DNA of 22,336 nucleotides, from IMG/VR virus record IMGVR_UViG_3300032285_002672, positions 1-22,336 of that record; one strand, written 5' to 3'. The number at the start of each line of letters is the position of its first letter. The first letter of the stretch is position 1. Source of the stretch: a virus. Both the position numbers and the translations under genes were made by a program. The notes under the pieces were generated by a model that saw nothing but the letters and a program-made list of their open reading frames with translations, made no database searches and was not told the DNA's origin. Shown here one piece after another: positions 3,001 through 22,336 of this stretch.

Positions 3001-6000
3001 ACAGAAGGGTCGTATGTTTGGGTAACTTTTGATGGTCCTAGCTGGAATGTTTATAGATTCACTAACATGCACATTAGCATTATATCGGCATCTTTGATGG
3101 CAGGTATGTTAACTCTTGAATCCGATAAACCTATCACACTTAATGCCGGCAATTGGATTTATATTTCTCGCCTACCTGTAATAGATGGTTATTATAAAGT
3201 TGTATCAGTGTCGTTAAATAGTTTTGTAGTATCAACTTCGTTGAAATCATTACCAAAACCGTTTAATAATGTTGGCGATGCTATTATACATTCTTTTATA
3301 ACACAAAAAACATCATCGATTGATAATTTAGATATTGTTTTAACACCTAAATTAAATTTAAAAGAATTAATTTGGACTGATGATAGTGGAACTGGATCAT
3401 GGGCAGTTTGGCAATATAATCCAGCTTACAATATTGTACCAATAGGAAATACTCTTCCTAGAGAAAATCTACAGTTTGGTATAGTAATAGGTATGAGTGC
3501 TGACGGCACTATTGCCGCAGTGGCTTCTGGTTATTCGTTTGGCGAGATTATCATTTATGATAAAGTTGGAATTCGTTTAAACTGGACACAGCGACAAGTA
3601 ATTCAAAAAACACAAGGAATTATAACAAACAGGATTTCTGTAGCAAATGATGGTAGTTATATATTACTGTGTAACTGTCTAGATCAAGGTACAGCATTAT
3701 TGTATAAAAAGGATCTTAATAATAATTTTTCTTTCACAGAAGAATTAATAAATCCTGATGCGCAATCGGGCGATGAGTTTGGTTATAGTTCTGCTTTTGG
3801 AAAAGATTATGATGGTAATTTAGTTGTTTATATTTCTGCACCCGGTATTAATACTGTTTACGCTTTTAAATATAATAGAACTGTACAAGCAACATCTGCT
3901 TATAATCCTATAGGAAGTCTCGAATCGATTTTAGCAGTAGAGTCAACAGTCGGTGTCGAAGTCGGCATGGTAGTTTCTGGGATAGGCTTTACAAGTAATC
4001 AAATTGTTACCGAAATAATTAATAGTAAAACTTTACAACTAAGCGGATTACCAGACAGTATTCCTGCCGGTGTAATTAGTTTTTCAACTTTAGGATGGAC
4101 TGAAGATCAGTCATTAAGATTTACATTCCCGTCCGGAATTACAAATTTTGGTAGAAACATATCTTTAAGTGGTGACGGTAATACTATTGCTATAACTGGA
4201 ATCAATAATGCAACTTCTAAAAACGAAGTATTCTTGTTCAAATATACAAGTAACGGATTTGTTTTAATACAAGATCCTATCCTTGGCCCTACAAGCGACA
4301 TTGATTTTGGAAATGTTGTTACTATATCCAATGACGGTACTTATATAGCAATATCTGATGATACTTTAACAGTTGACGGAGTAAATCAAAGAGGCGGCGT
4401 AACTGTTTATGAACTAACAAATAATATATATTCTGTTAATCAAGTATTAACCCCTCACAATCCGGAAACTAATGGTCATTTTGGAAATAAGATTTCTTTT
4501 ATGAACGACTCACAAACACTTGTAGTTTATAGCCAATTTGGAGATAGTTACATTACTACAACGTTTGATTCGGGTGCTACTATTTTTGATAACGGCGATA
4601 CAACATTAACAGTTACACAGCTCAATAGCGGCCGAGTTGATATCTACGATAAGTATGCTAACAAATGGGTATATAGCGAAAGTCTTGCTAAAGTTAATCC
4701 TGTAATCCATGCTGGCAAATTTACAATAGGCGATGTTTATGTAATACTTACGGTAGGTACTACAGATTTTACACTAGTAGGCGCATCTAATAACAAAGTT
4801 GGTGTTTCTTTTACAGCTACAGGAGTTGGTAGTGGAACAGGTACAGCATCTGTTTCTTCTTTGTTATCCTTGGACGGGTATGGTATAGGTTTTGCAGTTG
4901 GCAATAATCAAATATTAATTGGGTCACCCTTTGCAATTGATCAAGGAAAAACAAGCGGTAGTATTTACAACTATGCTAAAGATCCTGATACATTTACTTG
5001 GACAAAATTACACACCGACATAACTAAACCGGATATTAGTAAAATTAAAAAAGCATTTTTATATAATAAATCAACTGGTAATTTAATAACATATCTAGAT
5101 ACAATCGATCCCTTGCAAGGAAAAGTTGCGGGGCCGGCCGAAGAAGAAATTAAATTTAAGGCATTTTATGATCCTGCTATTTACTCTATCGGCGACAGTA
5201 ATATTGTAAATGTAAATGAAGGAACTGCATGGACAAAAGACCAAATTGGTATGCTTTGGTGGGATCTTCGAACTGCAAAATTCATAAATGCATATGAAAA
5301 TGATACATCCTACAGAAATACCAATTGGAATACACTAGCTGTTGGCGCAAGTATTGATATTTATGAATGGGTATCTACAAAATTAAAACCAAGCCAGTGG
5401 GATTTGCAAGCGGATACAACTGCTGGAAATGCGTTAGGCATCAGCGGAAAAACTTTGTATGGTGATACTTCATATTCTACTAGTAAAAAATATAATAACA
5501 TAACAAAAACATATACGACTACATATTATTTCTGGGTTAAAAATAAGAAATTTATTCCTAATATTGCTGGAAGAAATATGTCTGCTCAAGATGTATCAAG
5601 TTTAATAGCAAATCCTCGAGGACAAGGATATACATATCTAGCATTAACTGGTTTAGATTCTTTTAGTTTAGTAAATTCAAAACCTCATCTTAAAGGTACA
5701 GATGCTGTATTAAGTGTTGAATACTGGACAGGTGATCGAATTGACCAGAATGTACACTCGCACTGGAGTATTATTAGCGATGATCCAACAACATATATCC
5801 CTAAAGAAATTGAACAAAAGTGGATTGACAGCTTATGTGGTAGTGATATTGCTGGCCGCCCAGTTCCAGATCCATCATTGCCTCCAAAAATTCGCTACGG
5901 TATTGAAAATAGGCCTCGCCAGGGAATGTTTGTTAATCGATTCGAAGCATTGAAAGAGTTTGTAGAATTAGCAAATCAAATTTTAGCAAAGACGCAAGTA

Positions 6001-9000
6001 GTTGAAACATATGATATTTCAGCACTAGAATCATACGATGCATATCCGGATGCAATTTCTGGATTATATGATGTAACATTTGACACTGATGTTGAATTGT
6101 CATACGCAAACGTTGCAACAGTTTCAAGACCTGTTATTGTTCCAATACCACCGTCAACAACTAACGGAAAGATTGCTGGGGGGATTATTCGTTCTTCTGG
6201 TAAGGGATATACTGTAGCACCATATATTACTGTAACTGGTATCGGTTTTGGAGCAGTAGTTAGAACAATAATCAACTCTAAAGGTCAGATTACTGGAATA
6301 AATGTCATATCTGAAGGAGAAGGATATGATGATACAACAACTTTTTCTATCAGAGACTATAGTGCATTGGTAAAGAGCGATAGTCAGGATGCTGGAACTT
6401 GGAGTATATATTCTTATGATCCAGTACAACAAACATGGTATAGATCTCGTAATCAAGCATACGATGTTAGAAACTACTGGAATTATATTGATTGGTATGC
6501 AACTGGATACAATCAATTTACTGTAGCCGATTTTTCTATTAGTACATTTGCCGACTTAAATTCTATTCAATCGAAAATAGGAGAAGTAGTTAAAGTTAGA
6601 ACAGTTAATACCGGTGGCTGGATGCTTTTATACAAGTATTCAAATTCAACTAGTGTAGATTGGACACAAGTTTATAATGTTGTAGGTATACAAAACGGAA
6701 CAATACAAATAAAATCTACAGTATATCAGCCTACAAATACAACATTGGGATTTGATAATAACATTTTTGATAGTGCAGGGTTTGACCTTGTAGCTGAAGC
6801 AGAACTTAGAATTATTTTAAATTGTTTAAAAAATAATATTTTTATTAATGATTTAAACAGTTCGTACTCTGATTTATTTTTTGCAAGTGTAAGGTATGTT
6901 TATAGTGAACAACCATACGTTGATTGGATATTTAAAACAAGTTTTGTAAAGGCCCAACACAATGTTGGAGCATTAGATCAACCAGTAACATATAAACCAG
7001 ATAACTTATCAAATTTTGAAGATTATGTCAACGAAGTTAAACCTTACAAGACTAAGGTTAGAGAATATGTAAGCAATTACGATAGCATGGAAGTTGCTCA
7101 ATTGCCTATTACTGACTTTGATCTTCAACCGATATATAAAAATAATCAACTTCAAATTTTAAATACATTTGTATCTGACGGAAAAATAAAATCTTATGAT
7201 TCGGGTATATCTGTATATCCTTGGAAGTTTTGGTTAGACAATGTAGGTTTTGAAATCACTGAAATTAATCTAATTGATGGAGGTAGCGGATATTTAACTG
7301 CTCCTGAAGTTGTTATATCAAGCATTAGCGGCTCAGGTGCAACTGCAAGAGCATTTGTTGTAAATGGTTCAGTTAGCAGAATTGTATTATTAACATCTGG
7401 GTCGGGGTATTTAGAAGCTCCTACGATAATATTCAATGGCGGGCTAAAAGCTACAAACGGAGTTACCGCAAGGGCAAGCTCGGTAATTGGTAATAGTGTA
7501 GTAAGAACTAATCTTATTGGAATAAAATTTGATAGGGTTGATCAAAAATATTATATTACACAGTTAACACAAACACAAACTTTTGTAGGATCTGGATCTA
7601 AAGTTCAGTTCCCGTTAACATGGGCACCTGATGGCAAAATTGGAAAAAGTTCTGTAGCAATTAATGGAATTCCTGTATTAAGAGATAGTTACACACTGAA
7701 CGTTGTTAGTAATATGTCCAAAGGTTATACAACATATTCTGGAAACATAACATTTAAATCTCCTCCTACTAAAAATTCTACAATAGTAGTTAATTATAAT
7801 GTCGACCCATCTGTGTTAGGAGCAACAGATAGAATACAATATTATTATAACCCAACAACTGGCCAACTTGGAAAAGATTTAGCACAGCTAATGACAGGAG
7901 TAGATTACGGCGGTGTAATTGTCAACGGTTTAGGATTCCAAATATCTAATGGATGGGATAGTGTTCCGTATTATTCTGACAGATGGGATTCTGGAGATAG
8001 CAATTTCACAGATAATTTATTAGTTGTTGGTCAAAATCCACTTGGCAACCATTCATTAACTTTAAATTATACCCCTAATACTGGTATTCAACTTAACTTG
8101 TATAAAGTTGTATCTGGAACAACTACAATTAGATTAGATGATCCTAATTTTATAGTAAGACAGTTTATAACAAAACTTATCAATGCGTTAACATATGATT
8201 CAGTCTTTGGTACAAATTATCAAAGTATACAAGTAGCCAGAAGTATTTTTAATTTAGTTGTTTCTAACGGATTTAAATCCTCTGAAGCTATTTGGTCAGT
8301 TAATAGTATTAGGTTAGCAATTAAATCAATACCAAGTATTGCATCAAATAATTCGTTAGTTTCTCAAATAACTAATAATACATTGATTATAACAAACATT
8401 ATTGGTGGCGGCCCAGTAATAGCACCTAATTTTGTTAGTGTTCCTGGAAATTCTAACGGAATGATACATGCCGGAACATTATTATTTGATAATATTTCTT
8501 TTATACAAGCTGAAATGATATCATATATCACAGCAACATATCCCAATGCTAATTACAATCATACAGTTTATCAAACAGATGTGCAATATGTGGTGTACAG
8601 TTTAATTTACGATATAATGTACGGTGGCAATAGTCAAACCACTCAAACTGGTTTACAATATTGGTCAACAAATAGTACTTTAAGAACTAGCCTTGCAACT
8701 AAATGGACAAGCATTTATAATCGGTTAACTACGTTAGTTCAAAATGTTGCATCAAATGTTCATGTTACTCCGTTACAAAATACTATAGCACAATATACTA
8801 GCAATGGGTTAACCGGTGGTTCTACAGTTAGTACTAAATTAGGACAATTAACAACAATATTGAAAAACATTGTTAATGCAAGTTCAATCCCTGCTCCAAC
8901 AGCTACGGCTCCTACAACTACTAATTTAACTACGACTCTTCAAAATGCAGTATCTGCAATTTTAGGACAACTTAATCAGTTAACACCACCTAGCAATACA

Positions 9001-11433
9001 TCTGCAATTGTTAATACCTTTTTAGCAGACGGGGTTACTAAAACATTTAATATACCAGTATCTTATACTGTAAATAATAATGATAAATTTATAATTCGAC
9101 AAACAACAAGTGACGGATCAGTTGCTCCGTTGGATGCTGATTACGATACAAGTTTATCAGGCGGAACACTTAACGGTGCTTATGCTACCGCTACTGGTTT
9201 GTTGGCAGAAGATATTATTGTCGACGGCGATGATTTAATCACGCCAGAAACAAGTCCTGCAACAGAAGAAGTTGTACCTGGTCAAGTAGTTGACGCAGTT
9301 GCTATTAAAGTATTCGATAAACCCAACAAAGGGTCTGCATCAATTAAAGTTGATAATTATAATGCCGACGGTACTAATAGAATATTTGCAATAACACAGC
9401 GACCAAACGGAAAAGGTGCAGTAATTTTAAAAGTTGACGGTTTGATTAAAACTTTAGGAGTTGATTATGATGTTGATTATGCAAATAACAATATAGTTTT
9501 TGGAACAGCTCCTTTAGTAAATCAAGAAGTAAGCATATTCAGTATAGGTTTTAACGGTAGCAATATACTCGACATTGATTATTTTGTCGGAGACGGTGTT
9601 ACAACAGAATTTGTAACCGGCGCATTGTGGCAAACCCCGGTTACATCGTTAGTTTATCTAAACGGAACAGTAGTTAATCCGCTATTGTTTAAAACAGATT
9701 CAACTTATGAATTATCAAATGCTATTGGTTTACGATTTGCTATAGCGCCAGTAGCTGGTTCAATAATTAATTTTATTATTGTATCCGGAGAAGATCAAAC
9801 ATTTAGTATTACTAAAGTTGAAACAGTTTTAACTAACGGTAATCATACATATACACTGAATAACTATATCGGAGATAGCTTACCAAGCGAGTCTAACATG
9901 ATAGTAAGGGTAGATCAAAATATTCTGCCAGGGCCATCGAATGTTTATTTTACAATTGGGTCAAATAGATTAACTTATACAATTGATCCTACAAAGATTT
10001 CTCCGTATTCTGTTGCTAATACTAGTATAGTAGTGCTAGTTGGTAATACTGTATTAAAACAAGGTTCAGATTACATTCTTGATTTAAGCGGAGTATCTGT
10101 TAAAATATCGAGAAGAATTTATAATACATATAAAGGACAAAATTTAATAGTTAGTATTATTGTTGGGGAAGGATACACATATAATCATTTAACAAGACAA
10201 ATTACATTTACTACAGCATACGATAGTTCACATTTAGTTCAAGTTATCAGTAACTATCAACATGACATATTGGATATACAGCGCACAACTATAAATGTTA
10301 CAAGTACTGCGCAACTTACTACCAATTCTGCCGAGTACTATTATTATAATAATATAGCCGGAGGAATAATTCCGCTAGATAGACCTGTTATCGGTGATTC
10401 ATACGTATGGGTGATTAAAAATACAACTCTACTTACTCCTATTGTTGATTATACATTGGCAGAAGATCATCAAAGTATTAAGTTATCAGTACCTGTTAGT
10501 TTATCTGATAGTTTTACATTAATTACATTTAGTAGTAATATACTAACTCCAGGGATTGCTTATATGCAATTCAAAGATATGCTGAATCGTGTATCTTACA
10601 AACGTCTAAGTTTAGATAAACAAACAACACTTGCACAAGATTTACACTGGAATGATGTGAATATTGTACTAGCTGATGCTTCAAATTTTGAAATTCCAAA
10701 TGCTTCTGCTAATAGACCCGGTATTATTGAAATCAGAGGAGAGAGAATTGAGTATTTTTCTAAAAATGGAAATATTTTAAGTAGACTCCGAAGAGGTACA
10801 TTAGGTACAGGTGTATACAATTTAAGTATTGCAGGTACTACTGTACAGGATATTGGGTATGGATCGACAATACCGTATACCGATACACAACATGTACAAC
10901 AAATTATAAGCGATGGAAGTCATATTGTGACACTAGATACAGTACCTAGTACAATAAACGACATTGAAATTTTTGTTGGCGGATATAATGATGGTGCAAT
11001 CTGGGAAACTGGAGTATCGTATGCTATTGGGACCATTGTAAATATCGGTAGTTATACCTATAGATGCGTAACAGCTCACACAAGTAGTGATGCATTTAGT
11101 AAGGACATAGGAAATTGGCAATTCTTCATAGGCAATAGAAGATTGAAAAAGACAAATTATAGTGTATTTAATATCAATAATGCACCTACCAGCCCAGAAG
11201 GAGATGTTAATTTTATTTCAGATTTTTCATTAGTACTAGATATTCATGGAAAACCAACTAATCAAATAAGACTAACAAACTTGTTAAATGTTGGTACACA
11301 AATAACTGTAATTAAAAATACAGGCAATCCGTGGGACGGAAAGTACGGAACTACGAATATCTTGTATGACACTGGTAAAATTGGCGGATTCTTAAAAGCC
11401 GTGCCTGGAATTTGGTATAAAGAATACCGATAA
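1..11433 (+). CDS. Giant modular phage virion protein (5'-partial)
   Basis: The frame is open from base 1 with no stop before the first ATG at 28, so the true start lies upstream; residues here are counted from that ATG. About 3,800 codons run without interruption to TAA at 11431-11433. Visible parts in order: a Trp-rich N-terminal region (DTDRP, PWEMLGF, WW, near 129-150); three W-G-Y carbohydrate-binding-like modules (near 440, 572, 751); an FG-GAP-like propeller (about 1149-1661) with two inserted modules; a WWDLRTAKF segment (near 1740) resembling large marine-phage structural proteins; GSGY-type beta repeats (2046-2109, 2408-2492); a segment with NEVKPYKTKVREY (near 2340); a helical stretch with FIQAE and YGGNS (about 2812-2985); serial beta modules with 'DGvTtxF' motifs; an ERIEY...RRGTLGTG module (near 3575); and a fourth W-Y module (near 3659). 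No signal peptide, membrane segment or enzyme active site was recognised. Its place before the fibre genes suggests a tail, baseplate or fibre component; this is inference. Virion protein is likely, exact role unknown. Confidence 0.85.
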   Translation, partial: DTSLVTPRWMIQGHDGSQVLAYGNYDDNGTADYRDSLILELEKRIFNNIKVKYDPAIFDISDIIPSYNRTNDYTLDEFNQVLAPSFYKWTSLSGRDFTKPLSYDINNSFTYNYSSNVAPNGLPVPGYWRGIYRWILDTDRPNLCPWEMLGFNIQPKWWVGVYGPAPYTQDNLPMWQDISDGMVREPGVPAVKISKYAKSFLINHIPVDSSGNLLSPIACGLAVGTITPNTDSNFVFGDVSPVEAAWRRSSHYPFSVILASILLTPAKTFGLLLDRSRIVRNLAGQLVYADTMLRVRPADISIPSIYSGNTRVQTAGIVNYIVSYILNYVFSNNTKSYLKYKTDLQTMVPQLSYRVGAFTGKNQFNLLLDSKTPLSTGSVFIPQENFKIILNSSSPTQRITYSGVIITKLQTGYEVKGYSRTQPYFVYYPHTQSGSAINIGGISESFSTWTPGQQYAVGSVVQYNNAFYRATTLVEPSSTFNTLIFSKLSTLPVTGGVTAILRKRWDTSSPVVVPYGTEFYKIQDVVDFLQGYGEYLKNQGFVFDDFNSNLKSISNWDSSVREFMFWTTQNWSAGQEKWSDWKPGVLVEYGSVVRYNGDYYSALFNLAATDIFDDTKYSKLDGLSNVGSSVISLSPSANKLTFQTTLAVVDDITNQFYDYEISKVDGTPLSPQFLDSYREGNTVSYSPRTGDGIYGATFYLVQHEQVIILNNSTIFNDLIYNPESGYRQERLKVSAHVSSNWYGGFDIPGFIFDQANIQQWQPWQDYALGDIVTYQGYYYSALTALHGTLEFDPVSWTRLLSKPVPQLLPNWTYKASQFTDFYELNGDNFDTGQQTMAQHLIGYQKRQYLSNIIQDETSEFKFYQGMIREKGTLNVLNKLFNVLSSENKESLIFYEEWAIRSGRYGATNAFENIEFILDESQFRINPQGFNLTNIVNPGLNFIIQQTPNDIYLKPLGYNSAPWPALSKYNPFLRSAGYVNTSDVSLVLSKIDDIINSTIVLTEGSYVWVTFDGPSWNVYRFTNMHISIISASLMAGMLTLESDKPITLNAGNWIYISRLPVIDGYYKVVSVSLNSFVVSTSLKSLPKPFNNVGDAIIHSFITQKTSSIDNLDIVLTPKLNLKELIWTDDSGTGSWAVWQYNPAYNIVPIGNTLPRENLQFGIVIGMSADGTIAAVASGYSFGEIIIYDKVGIRLNWTQRQVIQKTQGIITNRISVANDGSYILLCNCLDQGTALLYKKDLNNNFSFTEELINPDAQSGDEFGYSSAFGKDYDGNLVVYISAPGINTVYAFKYNRTVQATSAYNPIGSLESILAVESTVGVEVGMVVSGIGFTSNQIVTEIINSKTLQLSGLPDSIPAGVISFSTLGWTEDQSLRFTFPSGITNFGRNISLSGDGNTIAITGINNATSKNEVFLFKYTSNGFVLIQDPILGPTSDIDFGNVVTISNDGTYIAISDDTLTVDGVNQRGGVTVYELTNNIYSVNQVLTPHNPETNGHFGNKISFMNDSQTLVVYSQFGDSYITTTFDSGATIFDNGDTTLTVTQLNSGRVDIYDKYANKWVYSESLAKVNPVIHAGKFTIGDVYVILTVGTTDFTLVGASNNKVGVSFTATGVGSGTGTASVSSLLSLDGYGIGFAVGNNQILIGSPFAIDQGKTSGSIYNYAKDPDTFTWTKLHTDITKPDISKIKKAFLYNKSTGNLITYLDTIDPLQGKVAGPAEEEIKFKAFYDPAIYSIGDSNIVNVNEGTAWTKDQIGMLWWDLRTAKFINAYENDTSYRNTNWNTLAVGASIDIYEWVSTKLKPSQWDLQADTTAGNALGISGKTLYGDTSYSTSKKYNNITKTYTTTYYFWVKNKKFIPNIAGRNMSAQDVSSLIANPRGQGYTYLALTGLDSFSLVNSKPHLKGTDAVLSVEYWTGDRIDQNVHSHWSIISDDPTTYIPKEIEQKWIDSLCGSDIAGRPVPDPSLPPKIRYGIENRPRQGMFVNRFEALKEFVELANQILAKTQVVETYDISALESYDAYPDAISGLYDVTFDTDVELSYANVATVSRPVIVPIPPSTTNGKIAGGIIRSSGKGYTVAPYITVTGIGFGAVVRTIINSKGQITGINVISEGEGYDDTTTFSIRDYSALVKSDSQDAGTWSIYSYDPVQQTWYRSRNQAYDVRNYWNYIDWYATGYNQFTVADFSISTFADLNSIQSKIGEVVKVRTVNTGGWMLLYKYSNSTSVDWTQVYNVVGIQNGTIQIKSTVYQPTNTTLGFDNNIFDSAGFDLVAEAELRIILNCLKNNIFINDLNSSYSDLFFASVRYVYSEQPYVDWIFKTSFVKAQHNVGALDQPVTYKPDNLSNFEDYVNEVKPYKTKVREYVSNYDSMEVAQLPITDFDLQPIYKNNQLQILNTFVSDGKIKSYDSGISVYPWKFWLDNVGFEITEINLIDGGSGYLTAPEVVISSISGSGATARAFVVNGSVSRIVLLTSGSGYLEAPTIIFNGGLKATNGVTARASSVIGNSVVRTNLIGIKFDRVDQKYYITQLTQTQTFVGSGSKVQFPLTWAPDGKIGKSSVAINGIPVLRDSYTLNVVSNMSKGYTTYSGNITFKSPPTKNSTIVVNYNVDPSVLGATDRIQYYYNPTTGQLGKDLAQLMTGVDYGGVIVNGLGFQISNGWDSVPYYSDRWDSGDSNFTDNLLVVGQNPLGNHSLTLNYTPNTGIQLNLYKVVSGTTTIRLDDPNFIVRQFITKLINALTYDSVFGTNYQSIQVARSIFNLVVSNGFKSSEAIWSVNSIRLAIKSIPSIASNNSLVSQITNNTLIITNIIGGGPVIAPNFVSVPGNSNGMIHAGTLLFDNISFIQAEMISYITATYPNANYNHTVYQTDVQYVVYSLIYDIMYGGNSQTTQTGLQYWSTNSTLRTSLATKWTSIYNRLTTLVQNVASNVHVTPLQNTIAQYTSNGLTGGSTVSTKLGQLTTILKNIVNASSIPAPTATAPTTTNLTTTLQNAVSAILGQLNQLTPPSNTSAIVNTFLADGVTKTFNIPVSYTVNNNDKFIIRQTTSDGSVAPLDADYDTSLSGGTLNGAYATATGLLAEDIIVDGDDLITPETSPATEEVVPGQVVDAVAIKVFDKPNKGSASIKVDNYNADGTNRIFAITQRPNGKGAVILKVDGLIKTLGVDYDVDYANNNIVFGTAPLVNQEVSIFSIGFNGSNILDIDYFVGDGVTTEFVTGALWQTPVTSLVYLNGTVVNPLLFKTDSTYELSNAIGLRFAIAPVAGSIINFIIVSGEDQTFSITKVETVLTNGNHTYTLNNYIGDSLPSESNMIVRVDQNILPGPSNVYFTIGSNRLTYTIDPTKISPYSVANTSIVVLVGNTVLKQGSDYILDLSGVSVKISRRIYNTYKGQNLIVSIIVGEGYTYNHLTRQITFTTAYDSSHLVQVISNYQHDILDIQRTTINVTSTAQLTTNSAEYYYYNNIAGGIIPLDRPVIGDSYVWVIKNTTLLTPIVDYTLAEDHQSIKLSVPVSLSDSFTLITFSSNILTPGIAYMQFKDMLNRVSYKRLSLDKQTTLAQDLHWNDVNIVLADASNFEIPNASANRPGIIEIRGERIEYFSKNGNILSRLRRGTLGTGVYNLSIAGTTVQDIGYGSTIPYTDTQHVQQIISDGSHIVTLDTVPSTINDIEIFVGGYNDGAIWETGVSYAIGTIVNIGSYTYRCVTAHTSSDAFSKDIGNWQFFIGNRRLKKTNYSVFNINNAPTSPEGDVNFISDFSLVLDIHGKPTNQIRLTNLLNVGTQITVIKNTGNPWDGKYGTTNILYDTGKIGGFLKAVPGIWYKEYR
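1339..2400 (+). repeat. Three CBM5/12-like (chitin-binding type 3-like) modules in the giant protein
   Basis: Three copies of a roughly 45-residue pattern W-x-x-G/W-x-x-Y/V-x-x-G-x-x-V-x-Y-x-x-x-x-Y occur at about 1339-1464 (WTPGQQYAVGSVVQYNN), 1729-1863 (WKPGVLVEYGSVVRYNG) and 2269-2400 (WQPWQDYALGDIVTYQG). Each ends with a F/Y/W-[ST]-[KR]-L segment. The spacing of the aromatic residues matches small carbohydrate-binding modules of the CBM5/12 type. The copies differ greatly at DNA level, so they are old protein repeats rather than recent duplications. Sugar binding is inferred from the pattern only. Confidence 0.6.
3472..5010 (+). repeat. FG-GAP-like seven-bladed beta-propeller with two inserted modules
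   Basis: Seven degenerate copies of an F-G-x-x-[IV]-x-x-x-x-[DN]-G motif followed by beta strands begin near 3472 (FGIVIGMSADG), 3619 (ITNRISVANDG), 3772 (EFGYSSAFGKDYDG), 4144 (NFGRNISLSGDG), 4303 (DFGNVVTISNDG), 4477 (HFGNKISFMNDS) and 4873 (DGYGIGFAVGNN). Most blades also carry a strand of the type VxxFKY, VTVYEL or VDIYDK. Two modules interrupt the series: 3952-4086 (VGMVVSGIGF type) and 4711-4857 (TVGTTDFTLVGA, ending GVGSGTGTA). Both types are familiar to me as portable modules of marine-phage structural proteins. The blade count is by eye. Confidence 0.55.
6163..6354 (+). repeat. First GSGY-type beta-repeat pair
   Basis: The giant protein here reads IIRSSGKGYTVAPYITVTG, then a GFGAVVRTII strand, then ITGINVISEGEGYDDTTTF. 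This is two copies of the repeat 'I-x-x-x-G-x-GY-x-x-x-P/T-x-[IV]' separated by a strand of the 'G[AS]GA-x-A/V' type. Such pairs are common in large phage surface proteins and probably form a beta-solenoid-like fold. The fold assignment is inference. Confidence 0.5.
7249..7503 (+). repeat. Second GSGY-type beta-repeat pair
   Basis: The protein reads ITEINLIDGGSGYLTAPEVV, then SGSGATARAFVVNG, then VSRIVLLTSGSGYLEAPTII followed by GVTARASSV. The two copies align closely with each other (GGSGYLTAPEV and SGSGYLEAPTI) and with the more divergent pair about 900 bases upstream. Together the four copies suggest an expandable repeat family within this gene. Confidence 0.6.
10993..11127 (+). repeat. 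Fourth W/Y carbohydrate-binding-like module near the giant protein C-terminus
   Basis: The segment IWETGVSYAIGTIVNIGSYT, followed by YRCVTAHTSS and ending GNWQFF, repeats the W-x-x-G-x-x-Y-x-x-G-x-x-V-x-x-x-x-x-Y pattern of the three modules near the N-terminus, more than 2,900 residues away. The final W-x-F takes the place of the F/Y/W-[ST]-[KR]-L ending. It lies shortly before the extreme C-terminus (VPGIWYKEYR). Confidence 0.6.
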
Positions 11434-17013: not shown

Positions 17014-17934
17014 ATGGCTGGACAAGGCACGAAGATTCTCGCTAGTGATTTTAATCAAATTCAAACAATTGCCGCTAACGTGTTAGGCACCGGGTCGGGC
17101 CAGCTTGGTTACGGACAGCCTCTTACCAGCAACCAAGTATCAATCGGAACAAAAATCACTGCATTGGGTTGGCAACATTTAAAGAATGATTTAATTAAAG
17201 CTCGGCAACATCAAACTGGCGCAGACGAAAGTGCAAGTATACCAGATATAACTACTAGCAACATTGTTGCAGAAAATGATAGATCTTCGTATCTAACTTT
17301 TGCAAATCTAGTTCAAACATATGCTCTTAATGTAGATCCTACACAAACATCTTTACGTACACTAAGTAGCCCTACTAGAAGTACCCCATGGTCAGGAACA
17401 CTTACGCATCAGGTTATATTGACATTTAGTAGTGCAAATGCGGCAAGATACTATTTTAATTCAGGCGGCACAATCTTGTTTACTGCAAGTTTAGATAATA
17501 CAAATACTCAATTAAATACTGATTGGTATAATTTATTAGGAGCTATTGGTATTATTTCTATGAATTATAATAGTACTACACAAGTTGCAAACTCCGCATC
17601 GTATCCAAGTGCCGGATCGACTCCTACAGGCTCGCCTGCTGGCGGCCTTGGGTTTTATCAACTTAATAGTACACCTCAAACAATTTTTACAAAAAATGCA
17701 AGTACTTATTCGGGCGACCAATATCGAATATTAGCTAGTATAGATGCTACTCGTAGTATACTTACATTTAGAATCCAATTCCAAGCAACTGCTCCTGGCC
17801 CAGGCGGCGGCCAGGTTGAACAAGTCACTGGAACTTTGGCCAGTACAGTACAGGCTAATCATGCATCTGGTTCGAACGTATCGATGCTATCTCCTACTAA
17901 TTACATTCCTGCGGTAACTAGCTCAGGACCGTAA
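17014..17934 (+). CDS. Probable phage virion protein, function unknown (306 aa)
   Basis: A 306-residue protein beginning MAGQGTKILASDFNQIQTIA and rich in Ser, Thr, Asn, Gly and Gln, with no signal peptide or membrane segment. The first 110 residues look partly helical (WQHLKNDLIKARQH). The rest is beta-like, with many aromatic and Thr strands, a glycine/proline-rich turn GPGGGQVEQVTG near 267, and a low-complexity tail PTNYIPAVTSSGP. I know similar proteins only as conserved hypotheticals beside fibre genes of aquatic phages. An AAAGGA ribosome-binding site (17002-17007) with a 6-base spacer supports the start. It sits 26 bases after the third fibre gene and probably shares its late transcript, so a structural role is likely but inferred. 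Confidence 0.75.
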   Translation: MAGQGTKILASDFNQIQTIAANVLGTGSGQLGYGQPLTSNQVSIGTKITALGWQHLKNDLIKARQHQTGADESASIPDITTSNIVAENDRSSYLTFANLVQTYALNVDPTQTSLRTLSSPTRSTPWSGTLTHQVILTFSSANAARYYFNSGGTILFTASLDNTNTQLNTDWYNLLGAIGIISMNYNSTTQVANSASYPSAGSTPTGSPAGGLGFYQLNSTPQTIFTKNASTYSGDQYRILASIDATRSILTFRIQFQATAPGPGGGQVEQVTGTLASTVQANHASGSNVSMLSPTNYIPAVTSSGP

Positions 17935-17962
17935 ACTATTTTTCGATATTAAGATAATTATA

Positions 17963-17984
17963 GTAGTGTATTATGATACATTAC
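17963..17984 (+). other. Hairpin in the leader of the glycosyltransferase cassette
   Basis: GTAGTGTAT (17963-17971) pairs with ATACATTAC (17976-17984) around a TATG loop, giving 9 base pairs including one G-U. The Shine-Dalgarno GGAG (17985-17988) starts at the next base and the ATG follows at 17995. There is no T-run after it, so it does not look like an intrinsic terminator. It may influence initiation at 17995, protect an RNA end or mark a processing site; its function is inferred. Confidence 0.45.
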
Positions 17985-17994
17985 GGAGTTATCT

Positions 17995-18345
17995 ATGGAC
18001 GAAAAAGTTGAAAAAGCGTTTGCAGTTGCAAACTATATGGCTACGTTGTCTAATCAACGCAGAATTATTTTAGAAGAATACAATCAAAGTTTATTATACT
18101 ATAAACATGGAGCAACTTTTAAAGTAACTCCTGAATTGATTAGTCTGGCTAAAATTTGTTTAGACATGGAAAAAACTACTGATGTTGTATTTGTAGATTT
18201 AAATAACCTTCCAGTTATTGTACCTTCTGTACAAGAATTTTTTAATGATATAGTTGATTTATATTTTATAGCAACATCGGAATACTCAGAAAAATATAAA
18301 AGTATTAAGTCAAAACGTAAAATTGCAGATATTTTTGATCTATGA
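17995..18345 (+). CDS. Small conserved-type phage protein, function unknown (116 aa)
   Basis: A 116-residue, mostly helical, charged protein beginning MDEKVEKAFAVANYMATLSN, followed by QRRIILEEYNQSLLYY, and ending in a basic stretch KSIKSKRKIADIFDL. No catalytic motif, membrane segment or DNA-binding motif is evident. I recall similar small proteins in marine T4-like phages, also of unknown function. GGAG at 17985-17988 supports the start and a hairpin lies directly upstream. Its stop overlaps the next ATG by four bases (ATGA), so it is translationally coupled to the first glycosyltransferase-like gene. A helper or regulatory role in that cassette is speculation. Confidence 0.75.
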   Translation: MDEKVEKAFAVANYMATLSNQRRIILEEYNQSLLYYKHGATFKVTPELISLAKICLDMEKTTDVVFVDLNNLPVIVPSVQEFFNDIVDLYFIATSEYSEKYKSIKSKRKIADIFDL

Positions 18346-19187
18346 ATGGTGCTGTAATATTTGCTCAAAACAATGCAAGATTTGACTATGTTAAACTTGC
18401 AATATTTTCAGCCAAACAAATAAAACAATATTTAGACATTCCTGTTAGTATAATAACAGATAGCAAAGACTGGCTAGAAAAAATGTACCCCGACCATCCA
18501 TTTGATAAAATTATCAATGTCGAATCTTCTTCAAATCAGCAATTAAAAAATGTTAATGACGGATCTTTATATAAAACAAAAATAGATTGGAAAAATAAAG
18601 AACGCACTAGCATCTATCAATTATCGCCGTACGATAAAACTTTAGTAATAGATAGCGATTATATTTTAAATTCTAGTATACTTAAATCGGCGTTTGATAA
18701 TGATTACGATTTACAAATTTATCGTAATAGTTTAGATTTAGCGGGTTGGAGAGATACTAGCGAGTTTTCCAGAATTAATCTTTATTCTATTCCATTTTAC
18801 TGGGCAACAGTATTTGTATTTCAAAAAAATACAGTAATGGAAAAATTCTTTGATTTAGTTGAGTTTATTAAAACTAATTGGGATTATTTTAAATTATTGT
18901 ATAATATCAGGTCTGACACATATAGAAATGATTTTTCTTTTAGTATTGCTATTCATATTTTAAATGGAAAAACAGAAAATAATTTTGCTGTAGAACTTCC
19001 TGGAAAGATGACCTATATTTTAGATAGAGATTTCTTAGTAAATGCCAAACATAATGTAATGAATTTTTTAGTAGAAAAAGAAAAATATCTCGGCGAATAT
19101 ACTTTAGTAAAAACAACCGGACTAGACATTCATGTTATGAATAAATCTAGTTTAAGTAGATTTATCGATGGAGGGTCAGGTGTCTAA
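18342..19187 (+). CDS. Glycosyltransferase-like protein, GT-A fold, GT8-like (281 aa)
   Basis: The N-terminus GAVIFAQNNARFDYVKLAIF and the strand VSIITDS (near 35-41) look like the nucleotide-sugar half of a GT-A Rossmann-like fold. LSPYDKTLVIDSDYIL places a D-x-D motif at D104-S105-D106, the site that binds the metal and UDP-sugar phosphates in such enzymes. FSFSIAIHIL near 200 and a late His (DIHVMNKSSL) are further matches to the next gene. That gene is a clear paralog: FAQN, SPYxxTxVxDxD, and the pattern E/V-F-x-x-x-N-W are shared in the same order. It would transfer a sugar in the cytoplasm. Donor and acceptor are unknown; modification of virion protein, DNA or host surface glycan are all possible. 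No strong ribosome-binding site is seen, so initiation probably depends on the ATGA overlap. Confidence 0.7.
   Translation: MNGAVIFAQNNARFDYVKLAIFSAKQIKQYLDIPVSIITDSKDWLEKMYPDHPFDKIINVESSSNQQLKNVNDGSLYKTKIDWKNKERTSIYQLSPYDKTLVIDSDYILNSSILKSAFDNDYDLQIYRNSLDLAGWRDTSEFSRINLYSIPFYWATVFVFQKNTVMEKFFDLVEFIKTNWDYFKLLYNIRSDTYRNDFSFSIAIHILNGKTENNFAVELPGKMTYILDRDFLVNAKHNVMNFLVEKEKYLGEYTLVKTTGLDIHVMNKSSLSRFIDGGSGV
19170..19175 (+). promoter_or_regulatory. Ribosome-binding site GGAGGG favouring a GTG start at 19180
   Basis: GGAGGG lies four bases before GTG (19180-19182) and overlaps the in-frame ATG at 19168, where it cannot act as that ATG's own site. The GTG start also gives an N-terminus (MSKGFIVFAQN) that lines up with the upstream paralog (MNGAVIFAQN). 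I therefore place the start at GTG, four residues shorter than the longest frame. Confidence 0.65.
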
Positions 19188-20019
19188 AGGATTTATAGTT
19201 TTTGCTCAAAATACTGATAGTGTTGATTATATTCAGCAAGCCTACGCATTGGCATTAAGTATTAAATTTACACAATTGGAAGTTACCAATATTAGTATAG
19301 TTACTAGTGATAGTGTACCTGAAGAATATCAGCATGCATTTGATCAAATAATTCCTATTCCGTGGCTTGATGAAAAATCATCAAGTAAGTTTGCCGCAGA
19401 ACATCGATGGAAATTATATCATGCTAGTCCGTATCATGAAACTATAGTATTAGATACCGATATGCTTTTATTAGAAGATATTAGTTCTTGGTGGAAATAT
19501 TGTAGTAATTATAATATTAGATTTTGTAATAATATTTTAAATTATAAACTAGAACATGTTTCTGATATTGTCCATCGAAAAGTGTTTATATCTAACAAAT
19601 TAACCAACCCTTATTTTGCTTTGCACTATTTTAAAAAATCTGAAACATCTTTAGAATTTTATCGTGTATTAGAATTTGTTGTTAATAATTGGGAACTATG
19701 CTGGGATAAATTTGCATCGTCTAATTATCAAAAATGGTTAAGTATGGATTTAGCAGTAGCCGTGGCAACAGAGCTATCTTTAATGCATGACGAAGTAATG
19801 GATAATACCGGTATTTTGAAATTTGTTCATATGAAAACACCAATTCAAGGATGGGATAGCTCTTATGAAAAATGGACAGATGCTGTTTCTTACGTATTAA
19901 ATTCTCGAGGAGAATTTTTAGTGAATAATATAAAACAACCTGCATTATTTCATTATGTAGAAAAAGATTTTATAACGCCTAAAATGCTTAATAAGCTCGA
20001 GGAGTTATGCAATGGCTAA
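19180..20019 (+). CDS. Glycosyltransferase-like protein, GT-A fold, paralog of the preceding gene (279 aa)
   Basis: From the GTG start the protein reads MSKGFIVFAQNTDSVDYIQQ and then ISIVTSD. RWKLYHASPYHETIVLDTDM places the D-x-D motif at D92-T93-D94. WLSMDLAVAVATEL near 192-205 corresponds to the FSFSIAIHIL region of the upstream paralog, and FHYVEKDF provides the C-terminal His. It is better preserved as a GT-A enzyme than its neighbour, with an acidic run LLLEDISSWW after the D-x-D. It overlaps the upstream stop by 8 bases and the next gene by 8 bases, indicating a coupled operon. Sugar transfer is inferred from fold motifs; donor and acceptor are unknown. An ATG at 19168 is the alternative start. 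Confidence 0.72.
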   Translation: MSKGFIVFAQNTDSVDYIQQAYALALSIKFTQLEVTNISIVTSDSVPEEYQHAFDQIIPIPWLDEKSSSKFAAEHRWKLYHASPYHETIVLDTDMLLLEDISSWWKYCSNYNIRFCNNILNYKLEHVSDIVHRKVFISNKLTNPYFALHYFKKSETSLEFYRVLEFVVNNWELCWDKFASSNYQKWLSMDLAVAVATELSLMHDEVMDNTGILKFVHMKTPIQGWDSSYEKWTDAVSYVLNSRGEFLVNNIKQPALFHYVEKDFITPKMLNKLEELCNG

Positions 20020-20533
20020 AAAGAAAAAAATACTACCCCCTCCTGCATTGCTCCCGTCTAAATTTTATGTTGAATACGATGAATTTGGAAACATAGTATC
20101 GGTGTTAAATGAAACTATAGAAACAACTATGAGTTTGTTAGAAATTACGTTTGAAACATATCAAAAGTTTGTACAACATAAAAATAAATTTTCAGATTTT
20201 AAAATAGACAACGGGGAATTAATTTGTATCAGATCTGACAATATAATTACAACAAGTATATTTCTATACGAAACAGCTTCTAGCAGGACAGCTGATTTAG
20301 AAATTTATCACAACGATTTGTGGACATTTATTTTAGCAACCCCAGTTAAGGCTAATGTAACATTTTTTCTTACATTAGAAGCAGATAGAAATTGTTTGAT
20401 TAGGACATTTAATTTAAATTTTAAAGATTTGTCTGTAAACAAAATTGTTTTTCCTTATGAAACTGAAATGGAACGACAGACTAATTTTTTATTTTTAACT
20501 GATTCTAAGTTATCATTTAAATATATAGATTAA
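20012..20533 (+). CDS. Hypothetical protein within the glycosyltransferase cassette (173 aa)
   Basis: The protein begins with a lysine run and a proline stretch (MAKKKKILPPPALLPSKFYV), then a short helical segment and a mainly beta C-terminal part (TTSIFLYETASS, ADLEIYHNDLWTFIL, NVTFFLTLEADRN, FLTDSKLSFKYID). I do not recognise the family. No membrane helix or catalytic motif is apparent. GAGGAG at 20000-20005 supports the ATG, which overlaps the preceding stop by 8 bases. The beta-rich composition would suit a small virion or binding protein; being embedded between glycosyltransferase-like genes, it might also be their acceptor or partner. Both are guesses. Confidence 0.72.
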   Translation: MAKKKKILPPPALLPSKFYVEYDEFGNIVSVLNETIETTMSLLEITFETYQKFVQHKNKFSDFKIDNGELICIRSDNIITTSIFLYETASSRTADLEIYHNDLWTFILATPVKANVTFFLTLEADRNCLIRTFNLNFKDLSVNKIVFPYETEMERQTNFLFLTDSKLSFKYID

Positions 20534-20543
20534 AGGATTTTAA

Positions 20544-21446
20544 ATGAGTAATACAATAAAAGTAATTGAGCAAGATATTATTTTTCTTAGCTATAACGAG
20601 CCAAACGCTGAAAAAAACTATGCAGATTTGTTAACTAAAGTGCCATGGGCTAAACGTGTACACGGAGTTAAAGGATCAGACGCGGCACATAAAGCGTGTG
20701 CGGCACAATGCGAAACGGAATATTTTGTCACAGTGGACGGAGACAATATTATAGATCCAAAATTTCTTGAAGTAGAAATTGACTTAGATAAATTAGGATT
20801 AACTAAAGATCATGTATTCAGTTGGTGCGGCAAAGTTCATGTTAACGGGCTTATGTACGGCAATGGCGGCCTTAAAATGTGGACTCCTGACTTTGTTAAT
20901 AATATGCGAACACATGAAAACAGTGACCCTACTGATACTAAAGGATTAGTTGAATTTTGTTTTGATGACAAATATTATCAGTTTACAGAAAATTATAGTG
21001 AAAGTTTTACTAACGGTACGCCCGAACAAGCATGGCGGGCAGGATTCCGTGAAGGTGTAAAGATGAGTCTAGATCAAGGTGCTAAAGTTGGGGATCTTAA
21101 AAAAACTCACTGGCAAAACTATCAAAGATTACTAATATGGTCAAGCGTTGGTGCTGATGTTGAAAACGGTATTTGGAGTGTGCTAGGTGCAAGAGAAGGG
21201 TGCTATCTTACTAATTGCACTGATTGGGACTATTCAAATGTCCGTGATTTTGACTACCTTGCAAATCATTGGCAAACAAAACATGAAGGAAAAGATCCTA
21301 GTATAACATCTTCTTATATTAATTTTCTAGGAAAAAAATTAATAGACGAATGCGGATTAGAGATTGCTAATTTAGATCCTGCCGGAAGTGTATTACTTAA
21401 AACAGTTTATAGTAATGCTCCAAGGAGAGTTCATCCGCATGTATGA
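20544..21446 (+). CDS. Glycosyltransferase-like protein with DGD motif (300 aa)
   Basis: The N-terminus DIIFLSYNEPNAEKNYADLL is typical of a GT-A nucleotide-sugar-binding strand and loop. RVHGVKGSDAAHKACAAQ is followed by YFVTVDGDNII with a D-x-D at D65-G66-D67. GLMYGNGGLKMWTPDFV and TPEQAWRAGFREGVKMS are later landmarks, all conserved in order in the next gene, which is a paralog. I recognise this type from aquatic T4-like phages, where it stays poorly annotated. The reaction would be cytoplasmic sugar transfer; donor and acceptor cannot be read. AAAGGA just before the ATG (spacer about 6 bases) is a good ribosome-binding site. The stop lies 8 bases inside the start of the next gene. Confidence 0.7.
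   Translation: MSNTIKVIEQDIIFLSYNEPNAEKNYADLLTKVPWAKRVHGVKGSDAAHKACAAQCETEYFVTVDGDNIIDPKFLEVEIDLDKLGLTKDHVFSWCGKVHVNGLMYGNGGLKMWTPDFVNNMRTHENSDPTDTKGLVEFCFDDKYYQFTENYSESFTNGTPEQAWRAGFREGVKMSLDQGAKVGDLKKTHWQNYQRLLIWSSVGADVENGIWSVLGAREGCYLTNCTDWDYSNVRDFDYLANHWQTKHEGKDPSITSSYINFLGKKLIDECGLEIANLDPAGSVLLKTVYSNAPRRVHPHV
21422..21427 (+). promoter_or_regulatory. Ribosome-binding site AAGGAG deciding the start at 21439
   Basis: AAGGAG stands 11 bases before ATG 21439. The frame stays open upstream to a GTG at 21388, but that start has no comparable site and would add 17 residues running deep into the previous gene. The ATG start gives MYDIVFISYNEP, which aligns with DIIFLSYNEP of the upstream paralog. 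Confidence 0.7.
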
Positions 21447-22158
21447 TATAGTTTTTATATCTTATAATGAACCAAAAGCTAGCATAAAGTTTTTAGAACT
21501 AGTAAGCAATCCATTTTTAGTAAACCGTAGTATTATACATGTACACGGAGTTACCGGAATACAACATGCACACGTTGCGGCAGCTAAACAAGTTTCTACA
21601 AAAATGTTTTATGTAGTAGATTCTGATGCTGAAATATTGCCAAATTTTCGATTTAATTTAAAATTAGACCCAAGCGAAGAAGATATTGTACATGTTTGGC
21701 AAAGTCGCAATCCTATTAATGGACTAGTGTATGGATACGGAGGAGTTAAATTACTCCCTCGAGAGTTAACTTTGAATATGGATTTAAATAGCCACGATAT
21801 GACTACAAGTATTTCTAGTAGATTTAAAGTAATTCCTAAAACAAGTAACATAACAGCATTTAATACAGATCCGTTAAGCACATGGCGCAGTAGTTTTAGG
21901 GAATGTGCAAAATTGGCAAGTAAAATTATTATTGGACAGAATGATCAAGAATCTGAAAACAGATTAAATGTATGGAGATTTAATCAAAGTAACGCACCGT
22001 TTGCTGAATATTCTAGAAGCGGTGCAAGTGCAGGCCACTGGTATGGAACAACTTATAAAGATAACCCAAGGGCGTTATCTAAAATAAATGATTATAATTG
22101 GTTAGAATCGGAATATTACGGACATATCCAGGCATTCCCTCCAGAGTCTTTTAAATAA
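21439..22158 (+). CDS. Glycosyltransferase-like protein, shorter paralog of the preceding gene (239 aa)
   Basis: MYDIVFISYNEPKASIKFLE, then IIHVHGVTGIQHAHVAAAKQ, then MFYVVDSDAEI with D-x-D at D61-S62-D63. GLVYGYGGVKLLPRE, DPLSTWRSSFRECAKLA and NRLNVWRFNQSN follow in the same order as in the 300-aa gene upstream. It is about 60 residues shorter, mainly by lacking the upstream gene's C-terminal segment after the FDYLANHW region. The two probably arose by tandem duplication and then diverged widely. The 8-base overlap with the upstream gene implies coupled translation. Its stop overlaps the stop of the convergent thymidylate synthase by 8 bases. The function as a sugar transferase is inferred; a degenerate or binding-only role is possible. 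Confidence 0.7.
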   Translation: MYDIVFISYNEPKASIKFLELVSNPFLVNRSIIHVHGVTGIQHAHVAAAKQVSTKMFYVVDSDAEILPNFRFNLKLDPSEEDIVHVWQSRNPINGLVYGYGGVKLLPRELTLNMDLNSHDMTTSISSRFKVIPKTSNITAFNTDPLSTWRSSFRECAKLASKIIIGQNDQESENRLNVWRFNQSNAPFAEYSRSGASAGHWYGTTYKDNPRALSKINDYNWLESEYYGHIQAFPPESFK

Positions 22159-22162
22159 GACT
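22145..22162. other. Inverted repeat spanning the overlapping convergent stop codons
   Basis: AGTCTT (22145-22150) is the reverse complement of AAGACT (22157-22162), with the six bases TTAAAT between, extendable by one G-U pair. It lies exactly over the overlapping stops of the plus-strand gene and the minus-strand thyX. No T-run follows on either strand, so it is at best a weak bidirectional terminator. Confidence 0.35.
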
Positions 22163-22336
22163 TGTAGTTAATGGAAAAATTTCGGCAATTACTTTGGCAC
22201 AAGCAATAGCAACTTCTTGATGTTCTTTTTGTGTACCATTAGCACTACGTAACTCGATAAAGTGAATCCAACTACGTAATGTGCCATTCATATATAAACG
22301 ACTTTCGATAAGCCCTTCCGGCAATACAGCTCGAGC
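22151..22336 (-). CDS. thyX: Flavin-dependent thymidylate synthase, C-terminal part (ThyX, truncated by window edge)
   Basis: The minus strand encodes 61 residues to a TAA (22153-22151), starting ARAVLPEGLIESRLYMNGTL, then RSWIHFIELRSANGTQKEHQ and ending IFPLTTSLI. The AR-x-VLP-x-G motif followed by a helix, N-G-T-LRSWIHFI-x-LR and Q-x-E-H are diagnostic of the C-terminal half of ThyX. In this family that Arg-rich LRS...LR region binds dUMP and FAD across the tetramer. The enzyme makes dTMP from dUMP using methylene-tetrahydrofolate and FAD/NADPH, supplying thymidine for an AT-rich phage genome. The N-terminal part, including the RHRxxS signature, lies beyond the right edge. It belongs to a separate, oppositely oriented unit, probably nucleotide metabolism. 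Confidence 0.93.
   Translation of the reverse strand, partial: ARAVLPEGLIESRLYMNGTLRSWIHFIELRSANGTQKEHQEVAIACAKVIAEIFPLTTSLI

Follow-up and report, generated by a model that had tools for sequence, protein, structure and literature searches.

Glycosyltransferase genes, including members of family GT8, are already known beside the tail fibers of T4-like aquatic phages. The excerpted text of PMC7029224 places them in the host recognition cluster of pelagimyophages and cyanomyophages, in some cases together with radical SAM cassettes. An arrangement of this general kind is present in the virus sequence analyzed here (IMG/VR virus record IMGVR_UViG_3300032285_002672, 22,336 bases; “the window” refers to this whole stretch). 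Six genes with one direction, s-A1-A2-t-B1-B2, occupy positions 17995 to 22158 behind the fiber-region genes, and A1/A2 and B1/B2 are two pairs of predicted glycosyltransferases. While the pelagimyophage cluster, which lies between vrlC and gp14, is described in that excerpt as a hypervariable island, the order of the six genes is fixed in 73 of 82 loci. Also unlike that cluster, the cassette has a GT-A (glycosyltransferase A) family that lacks a Pfam model, a putative promoter of its own and a leader hairpin, and no match was found for s, A1, A2, B1, or B2 by tblastn in 50,697 phage records (P0005 and P0003 at E 1e-5, P0006 and a marine B1 at 1e-3, P0002 and P0001 at 1e-2; t was not among the queries). 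Virion proteins carry sugars in mycobacteriophages, which likewise encode glycosyltransferases, but those phages are unrelated and, in the part of PMC12619734 that was available, the acceptors are the capsid and tail tube, whereas the putative link here is to the fiber region. In the same partial source the Moraphages, a large aquatic phage lineage, have four glycosyltransferases in their core. Searches of the open-licence PubMed Central (PMC) literature found no description of a conserved unit of six genes that combines a GT-A family absent from Pfam and PHROGs, a leader of its own, and half-domain repeats. An earlier note on this DNA, made from the sequence alone, knew of no described system with this exact layout; this holds for that literature, but the general kind was already in print (PMC7029224, as excerpted).

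The six genes are inherited as one unit and are not a chance arrangement, because gene content and order recur across distinct loci. Scans of IMG/VR found 258 relatives with B1 as bait, at least 592 with B2, and 158 with A2. The best 80 of each were fetched and made distinct by identical cassette proteins (143 loci kept), and the co-occurrence figures therefore apply to near relatives. The complete order was found in 73 of 82 distinct flank-qualified loci (31/31 for the B1 bait, 20/20 for A2, and 22/31 for B2). With s as bait, s A A t B B was present in 51 of 51 loci having at least 4.3 kb of downstream sequence, although these were not made distinct from the earlier contigs. Gene s was found in all 88 loci holding both F4 (the last fiber-region gene) and A1, and a profile recognized a positional homologue of t in 123 of the 124 loci that hold A2 and B1. 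Sequence profiles of s and t found nothing convincing in the PDB. Of 80 loci that extend 1.5 kb upstream, 76 have F4 directly 5' of s, and with F4 as bait, s A A followed it in 12 of 14 newly fetched loci, F4 standing alone in L318 and L320, the latter of which ends within the gene. Nine of the 31 more distant B2-bait loci lack one or more cassette genes. The cassette proposed in the earlier note is thus real, with all six open reading frames present, and near relatives hold it as a unit rather than with the scattered presence that the note had considered. Its wording, by which overlaps link five of the genes, was loose: four of five junctions overlap (by 4, 8, 8, and 8 bases), and the 10-base gap is as it reported. 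A2 begins with GTG preceded by GGAGG, and the alternative ATG at 19168 has no ribosome site. None of the six proteins has a convincing Pfam or PHROG match, only weak unrelated ones being found.

A1 and A2 are homologous (BLASTP E 1e-9, 26% over 186 columns) and are GT8-like GT-A proteins by predicted fold and sequence relation, with sugar transfer as the predicted activity. The AlphaFold2 model of A2 (predicted local distance difference test score [pLDDT], 95.1) matches glycogenin over residues 1 to 279, its whole length (Z 15.7, root mean square deviation [rmsd] 4.0, 210 aligned), and also LARGE1 (Z 15.4), GlyE (15.3), and LgtC (14.3). A family A profile of 118 rows, compared with PDB sequences, reached glycogenin-2 at E 6.7e-6 with the D-x-D motifs aligned. 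In A2 numbering, D92, D94, D190, and H258 are invariant (118/118). GT8 enzymes are retaining transferases that use UDP-sugars and carry a C-terminal motif, HxxGxxKPW; in family A the full motif is not present as such, although the invariant His is followed four residues later by Lys (K262) in 111 of 118 members. Family A thus shares with glycogenin, LgtC, and GlyE the fold over its whole length, the D-x-D, the C-terminal His, and the near-invariant Lys, but differs in an identity of about 12% and in matching Pfam GT8 in 0 of 118 members at E 0.05.

B1 and B2 are also homologous (E 5e-22, 34% over 169) and belong to a GT-A family with D-x-D for which catalysis is predicted. A family profile of 70 rows found nothing convincing among PDB sequences. 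With a limit of E 0.05, 6 of the 70 members match the Pfam family Glycos_transf_2 (best E, 7.1e-5), and the B protein P0005 scores 12.5 bits against it, below the curated cut-off of 23.3. The structural model is that of L173, a relative of B2 with one extra half-domain, rather than of a window protein (pLDDT 93.5). The best match of its core is B4GALNT1 (Z 12.1, rmsd 2.7, 141 aligned), and many further GT-A enzymes match; nucleotidyltransferases of the same fold class score 10 to 11, so that the fold is clear but the exact family is not. Foldseek matches of the model include the glycocin transferases SunS and ThuS, and its two closest matches in BFVD are uncharacterized proteins of uncultured phages (E 6e-26 and 2e-25). 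The core fold is common to B, GT2/GT12-type GT-A enzymes, and the lysyl hydroxylase LH3, with no significant sequence match. In LH3, too, a GT-A domain is accompanied by a GT-like one, which is inactive, and VIA aligns the whole repeat-plus-core B model to LH3 (Z 9.8, rmsd 11.1); the B repeats differ in being tandem half-domains, up to six in number. The D-x-D is nearly invariant in family B (D65 in 70/70, D67 in 69/70). The earlier note had read all four proteins as glycosyltransferase-like, each with a D-x-D, and this agrees with the motif conservation in both families and with the GT-A folds predicted for A2 and the L173 relative.

The same note described two duplicated pairs; homology within each pair is borne out, but a local duplication is not supported for B1 and B2. 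In a tree of 118 A proteins, made by a quick method, the A1 and A2 groups each lie on one side of a single branch (Shimodaira-Hasegawa-like approximate likelihood ratio test 100), and the split therefore appears older than the sampled phages. A second tree, of 69 B domains and with long branches and composition warnings, likewise separates B1 and B2 as groups that each lie to one side of a branch (support, 99 and 97). Sixteen cellular genes (from Rhodobacteraceae, Bdellovibrionia, and others) group with B1 (branch support 99); those from actinobacteria and Dyadobacter are placed, with weak support, toward B2. Because chromosomal genes of cells group with B1 apart from B2, the two look like old subfamilies that diverged long ago rather than a fresh local duplication.

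The cassette is not simply part of the fiber operon, because a sigma-70-type promoter precedes s in most relatives and is absent upstream of the fiber-region genes. When the pattern TTGAC-N-N15-19-TAnnnT was scored in the 80 bases 5' of s, it was found in 60 of 88 distinct leaders, compared with 0 of 195 before the gene for a 202-residue protein and F1 to F4, and 1.1% of random windows. The −35 element of the relatives is TTGACA in most, and the spacer is 17 bases in 46 of 74 scored. A T4-late-like element ([TGC]ATAAATA; background, 0.4%) precedes the 202-residue protein gene in 4/4, F3 in 41/52, F4 in 19/99, and s in 6/88. The marine-type loci L112, L117, L120, L123, L126, and L138 have a late-type promoter before s, mostly inside the dyad. 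Cyanomyoviruses have late promoters (NATAAATA) and sigma-70-like early promoters, according to the available part of PMC2984593. The link to the fibers drawn in the earlier note is therefore retained as a physical anchoring, but simple co-expression with the fibers is not, given a putative promoter and hairpin of its own as opposed to the T4-late-type promoters of the fiber genes.

The leader of s in the window folds at −15.4 kcal/mol (z −4.05), with the hairpin ending at the start codon. A leader hairpin with z below −2 was found before s in 80 of 89 relatives, compared with 1, 2, 3, and 2 of 40 each before F3, F4, B1, and A2, the folds being of single sequences with shuffles. RNAalifold found no pairs on a MAFFT alignment of the leaders, a result probably explained by differing loop lengths. 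Compensatory change is clearest in the outer stem, CCTCAG/CTGAGG in L063 versus AGATAA/TTATCT; stem types were registered pair by pair from the loop and are not strictly homologous, so that they do not amount to a covariation test. A match of the leader to Rfam RF02711 (24.7 bits, 55 being required) was taken as chance. As the −10 element lies in and beside the hairpin loop, the 5' arm would be missing from transcripts that start at the cassette's own promoter, a situation known from T4 gene e. The leaders of T4 genes e, soc, 49, and I-TevI resemble this layout, in the accessible text of PMC3014915, in having a hairpin over the ribosome site and a promoter within the hairpin region. They differ in that the promoter here is mostly sigma-70-like, read-through would come from late genes, and inhibition is putative. 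A leader switch is a proposal.

Relatives of B2 contain a further feature that the window protein lacks. In 30 of 134 B2 relatives the N terminus is extended by 117 to 651 residues, made up of between one and six units that each correspond to the first half of the B domain, copy number being estimated from extension length; the first copies match the B profile at E values down to 2.7e-18. In L047, L094, L096, and L099, copies of the second half lie behind the core instead, and two phage-like contigs (L239 and L240) encode two complete B domains in one protein. Both Asp residues of the D-x-D are present in 1 of 59 N-half repeats scored at both positions, versus every core domain (the window is counted twice in this tally). 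In the L173 model the repeat is a separate unit, and the strand and helix order at its start is similar to that of the core.

We tentatively favor the reading that the module glycosylates a virion protein of the tail-fiber region and is an autonomous unit of large T4-like aquatic phages. The virion fiber region is put first because of the invariable neighbor F4, the lack of membrane segments, the partner proteins, and a fusion in L137 (1167 to 2729) of a distant t-like N-terminal domain (E 6.5e-6) to a SPASM/radical SAM protein. Enzymes of the radical SAM/SPASM class often have proteins as substrates. The T4-like label comes from a T4-type Gp23 capsid protein found in 9 of 18 large relatives' records; Phage_sheath_1 was found in 0 of these 18, which counts against the label. 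In the mechanism envisaged, the four enzymes would work one after another, with nucleotide sugars as donors, and assemble a short glycan, A1 and A2 perhaps performing one class of step and B1 and B2 another, while s and t might bind or present the acceptor. The likeliest acceptor would be a virion protein of the tail-fiber region, F4 or its partners first, such that adhesins would leave the cell coated with sugar. The leader may let the module run on its own schedule: on transcripts that read through from the fiber genes, translation would be impeded by the hairpin, as happens in T4 gene e, and own-promoter transcripts would escape this by lacking the 5' arm.

Several observations weigh against this reading. 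GT8 enzymes also build lipopolysaccharide (LPS), as LgtC does, and the pelagimyophage authors favor a change of the host O-chain for GT8 enzymes at the same genomic position (PMC7029224, in the part available). A promoter of the sigma-70 type points to early expression that is separate from that of the late fibers, and this would suit a host-directed role at least as well. The window and its closest relatives lack the −35 element, and the computed Shine-Dalgarno pairing falls only from 0.58 on read-through to 0.41 on the own-promoter transcript, so that the switch appears weak. Ser plus Thr makes up 19 to 25% of the fiber proteins versus 12 to 16% of the six cassette proteins, the comparison being confined to these two sets. 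The virion is accordingly placed only slightly ahead of the host envelope. In the latter case, which is possible if somewhat doubtful, the cassette would redecorate the lipooligosaccharide/LPS core or another surface glycan, masking the receptor of the neighboring fibers, and phage would no longer adsorb to the infected cell or to its debris. The kinship of A2 with LgtC and the early expression suggested in 60 of 88 relatives fit this, as do the glycosyltransferase genes (GT-B, GT4, and GT2) beside cellular B homologues and the sugar dehydrogenases and DegT aminotransferases (three each of 144 neighboring proteins) near the genes of large marine relatives. Such a role has been proposed for pelagimyophages (PMC7029224) and for the LPS genes of cyanophage P-SSM2 (PMC2984593), both sources being available in part. 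It is weakened by the T4-late-like promoter in six marine-type leaders, which would be late for receptor masking, and by the gene content of the cassette, which has no polytopic or flippase gene. Gtr-type O-antigen seroconversion modules are defined by a polytopic flippase and membrane glucosyltransferases; no membrane segment was found in the six proteins (highest 19-residue mean hydropathy, 1.24), which argues against a Gtr-type flippase route. We know of no counterpart of s and t in known seroconversion modules.

The remaining alternatives are less probable. The half-domain repeats could belong to a more elaborate, and rather unlikely, scheme: a self-timed protein-glycosylation operon founded on a new GT-A family, in which the repeats of relatives' B2, as dead half-enzymes, would grasp or gauge the acceptor on behalf of the single live domain, and t-type domains would recruit either glycosyltransferases or radical SAM enzymes to that adhesin. 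An improbable alternative is that the cassette acts with radical SAM enzymes to tailor some small molecule or ribosomal peptide that is produced in the course of infection. Radical SAM and SPASM matches among neighbors in large marine relatives (45 and 8 of 144), the structural matches to SunS and ThuS, and a cellular protein that joins a B domain to a GT1-type enzyme, next to a C39 peptidase transporter (L255), would agree with this, but the window and freshwater relatives carry the six genes alone between fibers and thyX, and no precursor peptide gene turned up, no search being aimed at one. The invariable position behind F4 and the D-x-D-less half-domains would also be expected if the proteins were fiber-assembly factors that keep a GT-A fold and no catalysis; this is very improbable given the D-x-D that is invariant in A and kept in 69 of 70 B members and the invariant D190 and H258 of A. 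Glycosylation of phage DNA, as in T-even phages, where a pyrimidine hydroxymethylase is encoded by the same genome, is the least probable reading. Phage glycosyltransferases are capable of it (PMC12619734, as excerpted), and a thymidylate synthase gene (thyX, once thyA) adjoins the cassette, but PF00303, the thymidylate synthase/hydroxymethylase family, was found in only 3 of 18 fragmentary records of large relatives, and the one such protein examined is closest to E. coli thymidylate synthase. Family A, moreover, resembles glycogenin, and no modified nucleotides are known in cyanomyoviruses according to the accessible part of PMC2984593.

If the target is the virion, abundant freshwater phages would own a multistep protein glycosylation pathway with a family absent from Pfam and PHROGs; if it is the host, a receptor-masking module would be permanently tied to a receptor-reading fiber. 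Whichever the target, a single expression construct could address the question, the unit consisting of six fixed genes with a promoter and a hairpin. The half-domain arrays of B2 relatives would be a new route from enzyme to repeat protein and, were the acceptor-gripping scheme true, a new kind of repeat protein.

Table 1. Coordinates of the cassette genes, leader elements, and flanking features in the window, and of repeat arrays in relatives
Feature	Position	Strand	Description
Window record	22,336 bases		IMG/VR virus record
F4	17014..17934	+	306-residue fiber-region protein directly 5' of cassette; candidate acceptor or co-inherited adhesin
Cassette promoter region	17946..17974	+	−10-like TATTAT at 17969-17974; −35 position (17946-17951) is ATATTA, degenerate
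Leader hairpin	17952..17994	+	Two nested stems; ends at gene s ATG; covers Shine-Dalgarno GGAG in part
s	17995..18345	+	116-residue partner protein without known family
A1	18342..19187	+	Predicted GT8-like GT-A glycosyltransferase, D104-S-D106
A2	19180..20019	+	Predicted GT8-like GT-A glycosyltransferase, D92-T-D94, invariant D190 and H258
t	20012..20533	+	173-residue partner protein, fast-evolving
B1	20544..21446	+	Undescribed predicted GT-A family: SYNEP ... VDGD ... NGLxYGNGGLK ... WRAGFREG
B2	21439..22158	+	Second window member of the B1 family; no extra half-domain repeats
thyX, C-terminal part	22154..22336	-	Convergent; Thy1 E 1.7e-12; bounds cassette
B2 relatives with repeat arrays	L136:2985-5609, L187:5541-7844, L119:6690-8687, and 27 more		

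The genes 5' of the cassette encode, in order, a 3,801-residue virion protein, the 202-residue protein, and the four fiber-region proteins F1 to F4. F1 to F3 carry tail or fiber matches (Collar domain, E 6e-16; PHROG tail families), whereas F4 has no convincing database match and is a fiber gene by position only; the location directly behind fiber genes given in the earlier note is thus correct as to position, with that qualification for F4. F1 to F3 (starts at 12103, 14388, and 15491) have a similar N terminus, and all match PHROG 15511 and 14394, as if a shared anchor bore different tips. The 3,801-residue protein (28 to 11433) has three CBM5/12 matches near its C terminus. On the other side of the cassette, 70 of 97 relatives' loci have a minus-strand gene next after B2, and the gene in this place is thyX-like by eye in most of the 45 inspected.

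A genome scan with B found 110 relatives and returned 77 loci, of which 13 hold s and/or A genes beside B (s A A in 12) and read as phage contigs binned with bacterial genomes. Cellular B homologues adjoin glycosyltransferases (of 113 frames scanned around 28 loci, 12 match Glyco_trans_1_4 and 4 match Glycos_transf_2), and B is fused to a GT1-type enzyme in L255 and to a Glyco_tranf_2_4 domain in L274, which supports a role for B as a sugar enzyme without naming its acceptor. The L255 fusion (6750 to 10235, in a Paraburkholderia metagenome-assembled genome) lies beside a C39 peptidase exporter gene, and the region is possibly a glycosylated bacteriocin locus. Lone B1-like genes on Rhodobacteraceae contigs (L243, L249, L253, L257, and L260) lie behind a GT-B glycosyltransferase and near caspase-domain proteins. 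Other genes separate B1 from B2 in six viral loci, and the 144 neighboring proteins scanned in the large marine relatives with this separation also included two carbamoyltransferases. On the large phage contigs L107, L108, L113, L130, L144, and L153, B1 and B2 are surrounded by many radical SAM enzymes, SGNH-like proteins, and sugar dehydrogenases, together with a tryptophan halogenase and a cytidylyltransferase. In one marine phage, a t protein of unusual length (L234:6670-8001) has a weak CBM5/12-like stretch (E 0.009, below the cut-off).

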